From Pseudomonas sp. BN417 (lineage in GTDB: Bacteria; Pseudomonadota; Gammaproteobacteria; Pseudomonadales; Pseudomonadaceae): DNA of 51,296 nucleotides. The translations under genes were made by a program, and so were the position numbers. Every line of letters starts with the position of its first letter. Within the stretch, counting starts at the first letter, position 1. Below are positions 38,458-41,600 of this stretch, in pieces. Location: positions 1-51,296 of the forward strand of contig NZ_SSOJ01000125.1 of the NCBI RefSeq assembly GCF_029871205.1. Reading direction: 5' to 3'. A model generated the notes under the pieces. It was not told the DNA's origin. It did not search any database and saw nothing but the letters and a program-made list of their open reading frames with translations.

Positions 38458-39576
38458 CTACAAGGTCATCGCCAGCCCGCTGGCCTGATCCCAGCCGATT
38501 CGTACCGGGGTGCCATGCTCGAAGGCCGCGCGCTCATGCTGGCCATGGCGCGGCACGCGCACGCAGACGATGCCGAAGGGCTCGGTGCGTACCCGGTATT
38601 CGGTGAGGTTGCCGAGGTAGATGCGGTCCACCACCTGGCCGGGCAGGCTGACCTCGCGGGGCAGCGCCTCCTGCGCGGCGCCAATGGCGATCAGTTCCGG
38701 GCGCACGGCGATGCAGCCCGGCTCGGATGCCTTGAGCGCCGGGCCGGTGGGCGTCTGCGGGCTGGCCAGCTGCAGGCCGTGGGAGGTTTCCAGCGTCACG
38801 CGGCTGCCTTCGATGCGCCGTACCGTGCCGTCGAACAGGTTGGACTCGCCGATGAAGTCGGCCACGTAGCGGCTCGCCGGGGTCTCGTAGAGCTGCTCGG
38901 GGCTGGCGCTCTGGAGTATCTGGCCGTCCTGCATGACGCTGATGCTGTCGCTCATGGACAGCGCCTCTTCCTGGTCATGGGTGACCAGCACGAAGGTGAT
39001 GCCCACCTCGCGCTGCAGGCGCAGCAGCTCGGACTGCATTTCCTTGCGTAGCTTGCGGTCAAGCGCCGCCAGGGGTTCGTCCAGCAGCAGCACCGTGGGC
39101 TTGTTGACCAGGGCGCGGGCCAGCGCCACCCGCTGCTGCTGGCCGCCCGAGAGCTCATGGGGCTTGCGCTGGCCGAAGCCGGACAGGCGCACCATCTCCA
39201 GCGCCTGGTCGGCCAGGCGGCGCTGCCCGGCGCGGTCCGGGCGCGGCTGGTGATAACGCAGGCCGTAGGCGATGTTCTCCGCCACGGAGAGGTGCGGGAA
39301 CAGTGCATAACTCTGGAACACCATGTTCACCGGCCGCTGGTGCGCCGGCACCCCGGCCACCGATTGCCCGGCCAGCAACACCTCGCCGGCGGTGGGCTGC
39401 TCGAAGCCGGCGATCATCCGCAGGGTAGTAGTCTTGCCGCAGCCGGAGCTGCCGAGGAAGGAATGGAAGGAGCCGCGCCGCACCTTGAAGTTCAGGCCGT
39501 TGACCGCCGCCACCGCGCCATAGCGCTTGACCACATTGCGGAACTCGATATCGATGAACTCGCTTGCATCGCTCAC
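38458..39576 (-). CDS. potA: ABC transporter ATP-binding protein, PotA-like
   Basis: The roughly 372-residue protein has Walker A (GSSGCGKTT, about residue 37), the Q-loop VFQSYALFPHLSV, the signature LSGGQQQRVALARAL, Walker B (VLLLDEPLAALD), and a C-terminal TOBE domain. This is the standard PotA architecture. I prefer the GTG at 39576 (MSDASEFIDIEF) because AAGGGG lies six bases ahead; the ATG 13 codons upstream has no clear site. It is the first gene of the transporter operon. Confidence 0.9.
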   Translation of the reverse strand: MSDASEFIDIEFRNVVKRYGAVAAVNGLNFKVRRGSFHSFLGSSGCGKTTTLRMIAGFEQPTAGEVLLAGQSVAGVPAHQRPVNMVFQSYALFPHLSVAENIAYGLRYHQPRPDRAGQRRLADQALEMVRLSGFGQRKPHELSGGQQQRVALARALVNKPTVLLLDEPLAALDRKLRKEMQSELLRLQREVGITFVLVTHDQEEALSMSDSISVMQDGQILQSASPEQLYETPASRYVADFIGESNLFDGTVRRIEGSRVTLETSHGLQLASPQTPTGPALKASEPGCIAVRPELIAIGAAQEALPREVSLPGQVVDRIYLGNLTEYRVRTEPFGIVCVRVPRHGQHERAAFEHGTPVRIGWDQASGLAMTL

Positions 39577-39672
39577 GGCCGGCCCCTTGTTCCAGGTGTT
39601 CTTGGCATGTGGCAACAGGCTAGCTATAGCGGTTTTCGGCTGTATATATCCCTTGGGGGATAGGCGAGACTT

Positions 39673-39703
39673 CCACAGAAACTGTGGAGCGAGGTGTGGA
39701 TAA
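39673..39703 (+). repeat. composite DnaA-box motif, copy 1
   Basis: CCACAGAAACTGTGG, an inverted repeat, is followed by TGTGGATAA exactly 22 bases after the first base. TGTGGATAA is the complement of the DnaA consensus TTATCCACA. The sequence continues GTTATG, similar to the other copies. Confidence 0.75.
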
Positions 39704-39790
39704 GTTATGAGTTACTGTCCCCAGGCCACCTGGCGCGTGGGCTCGAAGCCATTGCCTGTTTCTTGAACAGAACCTACAGACAAGACCACT

Positions 39791-39888
39791 CGTGGGAGCG
39801 AATTCATTCGCGATGGGCTGCGCAGCAGCCCCTGGTAATCCTAAGGGCAGGCCTGCGGCCTGCTTCGCGAATGAATTCGCTCCTACAG
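39791..39888. repeat. GAATTC-containing dispersed repeat, copy D
   Basis: CGTGGGAGCGAATTCATTCGC opens the element and GCGAATGAATTCGCTCCTAC closes it, with inner arms GGGCTGCGCAGCAGCCC and GGCAGGCCTGCGGCCTGC. It sits between copies 1 and 2 of the composite DnaA-box motif. Confidence 0.75.
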
Positions 39889-39910
39889 CGTTTCCGCTCC
39901 TCACAGCTAC

Positions 39911-39941
39911 CCACAATTTCTGTGGGACCGACTGTGGATAA
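39911..39941 (+). repeat. composite DnaA-box motif, copy 2
   Basis: CCACA-ATTTC-TGTGG is followed by TGTGGATAA starting 22 bases from the first base, then CTCGTGG. Spacing is identical to the other two copies. Confidence 0.75.
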
Positions 39942-40014
39942 CTCGTGGATGACTGGCTGCAGAGCCCTTGGGGCGAGGGTTTCAAGCAAGTGCTCGGTTT
40001 TTGAGCACACGACC

Positions 40015-40044
40015 TTGCAGGGGCGAATTCATTCGCCCCTGCAA
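40015..40044. repeat. 30-bp perfect palindrome (TTGCAGGGGCGAAT core)
   Basis: TTGCAGGGGCGAAT-TC-ATTCGCCCCTGCAA is a perfect palindrome, a minimal form of the dispersed repeat with its inner part lost. The run of A after it is on the wrong side for a terminator on either strand. Confidence 0.75.
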
Positions 40045-40073
40045 AAAAGGCATCTCCCCGTCGACACCACTGC

Positions 40074-40104
40074 CCACAAATTCTGTGCAAATAACTGTGG
40101 ATAA
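40074..40104 (+). repeat. composite DnaA-box motif, copy 3
   Basis: CCACA-AATTC-TGTGC is followed by TGTGGATAA at the same 22-base offset, then GTCGTGG. The inverted repeat has one mismatch here. The 39577-40200 gap otherwise holds no gene I can support. Confidence 0.75.
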
Positions 40105-40200
40105 GTCGTGGGCATCACCACGCAAGGCCGATGGCGGCTGGCCTGCATCAGGCTGTACGGTTATTGATCAGCCAGCCACTAATCGCCTTTGGAAATAAGG

Positions 40201-41025
40201 CTAGACCGCCGTCCGCAAGGGTTCCGGATCGTCGCGCTGGCCGGCCAGGTCGCGGACGAAGAGGCCGAGCAGCTCCGACTGGCTGCCGATGCCGAGCTTG
40301 GCGTAGATGTTCTTGCGGTGGATCTTCACCGTGCCCGGGCTGATGGCCAGGTGTTCGGCCACCGAGGCGCTGGAGTGGCCGCGCAGAAGCATCTGCACCA
40401 CTTCCTGTTCGCGGGCCGTCAGCACATGGGCGCCGAACTGGTCGAAGGCTTCGCGGATCTTGTAGTCCAGGTCCTGCACCGGGCGCGGCGCATGGGCGCG
40501 GCAGAGCTCCCAGGCTTCGTTCACCACTTGCTCCACCACCGGCTGGGCGCAATCCAGCAATTGCATCTCGTCGCGGCTGTACGCCGGGCTGCAAGTGCTG
40601 CGCATCAGCGAAAGCACCGCCTTGGCGCCCTCGGCCAGGTCGACGAAGAAGGCGATCTCCTCGGTCAGGCCGGTCTGCTGGTAGTAGGTGACGTAGTACT
40701 CGCCCAGGTAGAAATGGTCCGGGGCGAACTGGCGCAGGCGCCAGAGGCCGGGGGCCTGGTTGCGGGTGCAGGCGAGGTAGAAGGGATCGAGCAGGTAGGG
40801 GCCGACCTGGTAGTCCTCGACGTAGACGTGGCGCTTGTCCGGCGGAAAGGTGTCGAACAGGGCCAGTGGCCGGTGGTTGCCTTCATAGACGAAGAGCACG
40901 AAATGGTCGATATGGCAGACCTGCTGCAGCCATTGGCTGAGCCCGAGCAGCCGGGCCCGGCCTGCCGGTTGGGCAAGCAGGTGGGCGACACCGGAGGTCC
41001 AGTGCTTGAGTTCCTTGTGGCGCAT
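40201..41025 (-). CDS. LuxR-type helix-turn-helix transcriptional regulator
   Basis: The 274-residue protein ends in a LuxR/GerE helix-turn-helix: LTAREQEVVQMLLRGHSSAS and VAEHLAISPGTVKIHRKNIY (about residues 200-240), followed by AKLGIGSQSELLGLF. The first 190 residues resemble no autoinducer-binding domain I recognise and may be a sensory or GAF-like domain. It lies upstream of, and on the same strand as, the pot/aldehyde dehydrogenase operon, so it is the likely regulator. ATG at 41025 was chosen over an upstream TTG. Confidence 0.87.
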   Translation of the reverse strand: MRHKELKHWTSGVAHLLAQPAGRARLLGLSQWLQQVCHIDHFVLFVYEGNHRPLALFDTFPPDKRHVYVEDYQVGPYLLDPFYLACTRNQAPGLWRLRQFAPDHFYLGEYYVTYYQQTGLTEEIAFFVDLAEGAKAVLSLMRSTCSPAYSRDEMQLLDCAQPVVEQVVNEAWELCRAHAPRPVQDLDYKIREAFDQFGAHVLTAREQEVVQMLLRGHSSASVAEHLAISPGTVKIHRKNIYAKLGIGSQSELLGLFVRDLAGQRDDPEPLRTAV

Positions 41026-41254
41026 GGGGGAAGTGCCTGAGGTTGGGCTGCGCTTCAATCACTATAGGCGTTCAGCATTTCGCACAAAAATGCAGGAAGT
41101 GAGCCAATATCCTGAAAGCCCTGCCAGCCGCTCTGGCGCGGGGATGGCTGCCGGCCGCCCTCTTCCGTCCGGGTAGCTGCTGCCCCGGAAGGCGTCACCC
41201 AATGCCACAAAAGGGGTGGTTCATATTTGGGTAGGTCCGCGCAGCCGGGTACGG

Positions 41255-41359: not shown

Positions 41360-41600
41360 GTGGGGCGAGGACTTCGCCCCTTCAGGAGGCCGAGCGGAAT
41401 CGCTGTGTAAGGGGATGAGCGGCATGGATGCCGCGAGAGGCGCGCAGGGCCATGGATGGCCCTTCGCGCCGTGCCCCTGGAACAGCGATGGAGAGAGGGA
41501 ACCCCGGCGAAGCTGGGGCCGGATGCAGGGGCAAGCCCTCTTGGTTACTTCTGGGGCGACTGCCAGAAGTGACTCGCCGGGAGGCGAAACAGAGATACGA
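41360..41600 (+). ncRNA. hairpin-rich intergenic element, possible structured RNA
   Basis: Successive perfect hairpins occur on one strand: GGGGCGA-ggact-TCGCCCC (41362-41380), GGCAtggaTGCC (41421-41432), a nested GGCGCG...GGGCCATggATGGCCC...CGCGCC (41439-41470), CCCCGGC-gaa-GCTGGGG (41502-41518), and ACTTCTGG-N8-CCAGAAGT (41547-41570) inside TTGGTTACTTCTGG...AGTGACTCGCC. The last motif resembles a short sequence that I recall as repeated in many Pseudomonas and Xanthomonas intergenic regions. The 41026-41647 gap has no supported protein gene. Whether it is transcribed is unknown. Confidence 0.4.

Follow-up and report, generated by a model that had tools for sequence, protein, structure and literature searches.

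In Escherichia coli, the chromosomal sites DARS1 and DARS2 are reported to convert ADP-DnaA back to ATP-DnaA, and the marks described for them are DnaA boxes I and II in opposed orientation, a spacing that is the same in both sites, and head-to-head contact, with a length of 101 bp for DARS1 (PMC5742627, PMC10380432). DARS2 is described as using sites for Fis and IHF that lie at defined distances (PMC4245941). Homologues of DARS2 have been shown in E. coli-proximal species (PMC8682772), and according to one account many proteobacteria have conserved DARS-like sequences (PMC10380432); a DARS core outside E. coli is therefore not new in itself. Among the first results of our open-licence literature searches, no title or abstract opening concerned DARS in Pseudomonas. 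To our knowledge, little is known of DnaA control outside the relatives of E. coli; two putative replication origins in P. aeruginosa have reportedly been the subject of one study, which PMC4285127 lists among its references. Judged from their sequence, three repeats in the 51,296-nucleotide contig NZ_SSOJ01000125.1 of Pseudomonas sp. BN417 (assembly GCF_029871205.1; the whole contig is termed the window) probably belong to a family of DARS-like elements that is present in many copies on the chromosome.

The repeats share a composite motif, in which a CCACA and a TGTG half-site precede a perfect DnaA box. As a preliminary description of the window had stated, there are three copies in one orientation, with zero mismatches, at 39673-39703, 39911-39941 and 40074-40104 (all forward strand). 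The motif is restricted to these sites of the window even when 3 mismatches are allowed, and 100 dinucleotide shuffles of the window gave zero matches. That description was also right in finding the perfect box TTATCCACA commoner than chance (7 in the window, 0.08 expected) and in limiting the extra arm to the three composites, the other perfect boxes (7605, 11585, 27842 and 30846) showing by eye no second box in the flanks inspected. The genome-wide search that it proposed, at up to 3 mismatches, found 30 places, mostly clustered, versus 2 for the reversed control. The unit as first drawn is real and non-random but incomplete, being the left third of an element that measures about 102 bp; when the copies of this genome are aligned, conservation spans from 4 bases 5' of CCACA to about alignment column 101.

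The geometry of the element is fixed: a reversed DnaA box I is followed after 5 bp by box II and after a further 3 bp by a perfect box III, and a Fis-consensus site stands 50 bp beyond. In an alignment of 25 copies, from which five of the 30 composite places (L007, L010, L020, L022 and L030) were omitted by eye, box I occupies columns 1-9, box II columns 15-23, box III columns 27-35, a fourth weak half-site columns 38-46 and the 15-bp downstream site columns 86-100. Mean pairwise identity is 0.66 in boxes I-III, 0.41 in columns 45-84 and 0.55 in the last site, the middle of the element being constant in length and conserved in part. Both the left arm (TTgYCCACA) and the TGTGG(A) half-sites resemble DnaA boxes: one is opposed, the others follow in tandem, and the successive gaps measure 5, 3 and 2 bp. 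The distance between boxes that E. coli DnaA prefers is reported as 2 or 3 bp (PMC11317965). Copy 1 (39669..39770, forward) has box I at 39669-39677 (reverse), box II at 39683-39691, box III, TGTGGATAA, at 39695-39703, a box-IV position at 39706-39714 (3 mismatches) and the Fis-consensus site at 39754-39768. The corresponding features of copy 2 (39907..40008, forward) lie at 39907-39915, 39921-39929, 39933-39941, 39944-39952 (a weak box IV with 2 mismatches) and 39992-40006, and those of copy 3 (40070..40172, forward) at 40070-40078, 40084-40092, 40096-40104, 40107-40115 (4 mismatches, hardly a box) and 40155-40169. Measured against TTWTNCACA, the window copies have 2-3 mismatches in box I, 1-3 in box II and 2-4 at the box-IV position; only box III is perfect.

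This layout is that of both E. coli sites, in which box I is opposed to boxes II and III and the gaps of 5 bp and 3 bp are identical. A sequence-only model of the element, R1, was run unfiltered on 17.5 kb comprising the DARS1, DARS2 and datA loci and the dnaA-oriC region of the Pseudomonas genome itself. The highest of the 37 matches listed is the DARS1 core (11.1 bits, model positions 2-85), followed by that of DARS2 (10.1 bits, positions 2-35); the best scores at datA and in the oriC region were 5.4 bits and 6.7 bits. As the R1 scores are weak (E of 0.005-0.01), the identical layout is the stronger argument for likeness to DARS. With DARS1 (bioD-uvrB; 101 bp) the element further shares a length of about 100 bp and an R1 alignment that extends to column 85 of 104, and with DARS2 (upstream of mutH; 455 bp) it shares the core. 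Boxes I and II of DARS1 are, however, stronger than those of the element, IHF is essential in DARS2 whereas the window copies have no such site, and E. coli has one of each DARS compared with about 30 copies here. The preliminary description had taken the repeats for a DnaA-binding control cluster, possibly of the datA type. Its first part is supported by the sequence; the datA comparison fits less well than one with DARS, because the extra arm consists of two more DnaA-box-like sites placed as in DARS1 and DARS2.

Of the 30 composite places of this genome, 22 have the Fis consensus GNNYRNNNNNYRNNC at one identical column, compared with a mean of 0.12 for each other offset, and so do 22 of the 25 aligned copies; this test is independent of the choice of copies because the 30 places were picked by the 5' composite alone. 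All three window copies match this loose consensus, each being one mismatch from the stricter form GNNYANNNNNTRNNC, and the genome encodes a Fis homologue (63% identity). In one array of this genome (L112, C156:91928-93893), which lies 37 kb from dnaA, ten units are paired about 124 bp apart, and an IHF-like site stands just after the Fis site in 4 of the 10 units and inside 4 of the 5 pairs.

The sequence of box III, TGTGGATAA, occurs 140 times in the genome (82 forward, 58 reverse) versus 15 times for its reversed pattern; 26 of the 30 composite places are on the forward strand and 4 on the reverse, and R1 finds 34 places at an E value of at most 0.001, of which 25 are in the model by construction. 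Conservation in relatives, another check that had been proposed, was borne out: all 17 further genomes searched in the genus carry the element, in 27-35 copies. Each of the 7 remaining genera examined in the family had R1 copies (2-21), as did 8 of 13 genomes from the rest of the order (1-4). All 16 named Pseudomonas genomes, which were picked from the fetched loci, carry the element: P. syringae GR12-2 has the fewest copies (8), ten genomes (P. ullengensis, P. putida 31800, fluorescens-type species and more) have 10-14, P. nitroreducens has 18, P. citronellolis 22, and P. alcaligenes MRY13-0052, a strain filed as P. taiwanensis xwS3 and P. resinovorans have 28-31. In five genomes of one or two contigs, 141 copies form 8-10 loci each (divided by hand), whose order, copy number and strand are largely shared. 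An array of 6-8 copies lies 36-49 kb before dnaA in these five genomes, the nearest array in BN417 being 37 kb from dnaA; a second array, of 7-10 copies, is placed at +0.42 to +0.48 Mb, and the remaining copies form small groups. In four of the five, the window copies correspond to a locus at +0.81 to +0.98 Mb between a LuxR-family gene and an ABC-transporter gene; the stretch fetched from the fifth has no LuxR or ABC match. All 47 loci (by true sequence lengths) and 139 of the 141 copies (by rounded genome sizes) fall in the origin-proximal half. The element is thus a chromosomal site outside oriC and not a part of it, and a reading as oriC fragments was rejected on the oriC score given above. 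Polarity towards oriC was also considered: 117 of the 141 copies in the genus point to it, as do 8 of 10 loci in G014, compared with 5 of the 12 copies listed in seven single-contig genomes of other families in which dnaA was placed (G072, G087, G133, G175, G178, G185 and G325; hand readings by locus and in other families), and on these last two counts it is not a general rule.

Copies are also found well beyond Pseudomonas. R1 matches 126 of 274 genomes of the class (E of at most 1e-4, BN417 included), many over part of the model, and a stricter core pattern holding no Fis information matches 91 of the 274, with none for the reversed control among the matches listed. Thirty class-wide loci were fetched, of which 29 had a usable core; their boxes I and II are near-perfect, but the copies were selected for strict boxes. 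These 29 copies were chosen with no use of Fis or IHF information. A Fis match lies at columns 85-88 in 14 of them (500 shuffles: mean 0.25, maximum 3), and 20 have, at columns 120-122, an IHF-like match with no more than 1 mismatch, which is exact in 5 (500 shuffles: mean 0.22, maximum 3; at most 1 at other positions). Both are present in 12 of the 29. Counts of this size at set distances indicate that, across a fair share of the class, the core is joined to its Fis and IHF-like sites in a single module. In the seven genomes named above, the listed copies are at least 75 kb from dnaA by hand reading and are therefore not oriC. A PriA gene adjoins 15 of the 30 class-wide loci (L213-L242; blastp, with Pfam PriA domains on one), and a UPF0093/CopD-family gene, which we take to be HemJ, adjoins 4. 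In a viral collection, two core patterns were found in 14 and 6 stretches. Nine of the viral contigs (L246-L249 and L253-L257) have nearly identical flanking sequence.

Several observations weigh against a DARS-like identity. Boxes I and II, which are crucial in E. coli DARS, are weak in the window copies, and the stricter core pattern has no match in the BN417 genome because boxes I, II or IV of its copies are too weak. In the R1 search the second rank was shared, because a reverse-strand hit that overlaps DARS1 also scored 10.1 bits. At the position that it occupies in the element, a Fis-consensus match is missing from both DARS1 and DARS2; in DARS2 the match was found at position 146 rather than 86, in a scan that misses some sites, as the paper on DARS2 reports several. 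The Fis match is absent from the expected column in 8 of the 30 composite places, from 15 of the 29 distant cores and from all 14 viral contigs with the strict three-box core (L245-L258), the last of which argues against the Fis site being an invariable companion of such a core. Downstream of the window copies, no IHF-like site was found within 2 mismatches, as sought on the model of the DARS2 sites IBS1-2. Finally, linkage to priA in Pseudomonas was considered and rejected: unlike many distant copies, the loci examined in this genome and genus have no priA beside them. The tie and the missing strict matches weigh only slightly, and they lowered our confidence by a very small step, to a level at which the identification is still probable. 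Because boxes I and II are weak, the Fis distance differs and the IHF site is missing in the window copies, we class the element, going by its sequence, as DARS-like rather than as a member of DARS2.

The main rival to this identification is that the copies are titration sites, which would bind much DnaA near the origin and so set the level of free DnaA, leaving its nucleotide unchanged. Some 30 copies with at least three boxes each, all of them origin-proximal in the five genomes, are as expected for such sites, and an enrichment of DnaA boxes near oriC is reported for E. coli (PMC12371093). In both cases DnaA boxes are dense near oriC; that report counts boxes by motif, whereas here discrete elements of about 102 bp have a fixed geometry. 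Titration alone needs neither an opposed box I at a fixed 5 bp nor a Fis site at a fixed distance, and we consider it unlikely as the full explanation. Inactivation of DnaA by datA-like hydrolysis of DnaA-ATP is very improbable. Like datA, the element has DnaA boxes outside oriC, and many distant copies combine such boxes with an IHF-like site; however, a scan of datA shows no opposed box 5 bp away, R1 scores at datA do not exceed 5.4 bits whereas the cores of DARS1 and DARS2 reach 11.1 and 10.1, and the window copies have neither the datA layout nor an IHF-like site.

It is also conceivable that the elements are promoter-linked operators through which DnaA and Fis control neighbouring genes, such as the priA genes that so often adjoin the copies in other families. 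Against this, the flanking genes examined in this genome (encoding a thioesterase, an MVL-domain protein, an EF-G-like protein, PhyH, RmuC, a methyltransferase and the ABC and LuxR proteins) are mutually unrelated, and the copies form arrays of 6-10; we regard this reading as quite improbable. The suggestion in the preliminary description that the repeats are the operator of the adjacent LuxR-type regulator was rejected: the element is present at 8-10 loci in each of the five genomes, and it adjoins a LuxR gene at only 8 of 68 named Pseudomonas loci, all from the closest relatives, being absent from that position in the DNA available for the other 60 (at three, L061, L071 and L096, the DNA ends less than 400 bp from the gene). 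A mobile repeat of the REP type or a miniature inverted-repeat transposable element would suit an intergenic, multicopy sequence with REP-like palindromes between its copies; this too was rejected, as locus order and copy number are largely common to the species and matches in the viral collection are few. Together, the regulator operator and the mobile repeat are scarcely credible. A reading as an RNA element was set aside: at gathering scores Rfam has nothing at the site, most copies have T but L005, L019 and L021 have A in the central run of the 3' block, and the 5' dyad is by eye broken without compensation in several copies. On account of the T/A run and the uncompensated dyad the element was treated as DNA, and R1 was built from sequence only.

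The repeats are flanked by a gene for an ABC-transporter ATPase with a TOBE_2 domain (38458..39615, reverse) and one for the LuxR-family regulator, with a GerE domain (40201..41058, reverse), whose product is 95-97% identical to its counterparts in P. resinovorans DSM 21078, sp. BN102 and sp. JM0905a, which places the source close to P. resinovorans. Between copies 1 and 2, outside the element, lies an inverted repeat (39792..39887; arms 39792-39813 and 39865-39886), presumably REP/BIME-like, and a second REP-like palindrome (40015..40044) lies between copies 2 and 3. These palindromes have a GCGAATGAATTCGC core, and similar ones are seen by eye beside the C126, C160, C58, C98 and C156 copies. 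A TwoAYGGAY RNA (RF01731) is listed by Rfam at 41412-41476 (forward), its 43.4 bits being barely above the gathering score of 43.

From the observed sequence, geometry, copy number, positions and conservation of the DARS-like elements, we infer binding of DnaA and Fis, nucleotide exchange and an effect on initiation. ADP-DnaA would sit head to head on boxes I and II, with DnaA on box III head to tail with that on box II, and the fixed downstream site would be bound and bent by Fis. The complex would loosen the ADP, and DnaA would leave and reload with ATP, as at E. coli DARS. The approximately 30 copies, at 8-10 origin-proximal loci, would be duplicated early after initiation, and recovery of DnaA-ATP, together with some holding of DnaA by titration, may be proportional to the origin-proximal copy number and to Fis, and hence to growth rate; growth-phase control through Fis would then resemble that described for DARS2 (PMC4245941).

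On a broader scale, DnaA reactivation in Pseudomonas may be a distributed system of 8-35 compact DnaA-Fis elements around the origin, whose summed dosage is read as recovery of DnaA-ATP, and the module of boxes I-II-III, Fis and IHF may be an older gammaproteobacterial device, often beside priA, of which DARS1 and DARS2 are derived members. We put this joint proposal forward tentatively, with slightly more doubt than belief. With a compact element in about 30 origin-proximal copies, arrays could be removed in turn, and whether reactivation or titration acts as the timer of initiation would become testable. The class-wide form, with its fixed Fis and IHF spacings, provides a sequence definition with which DARS sites may be sought in many bacteria.
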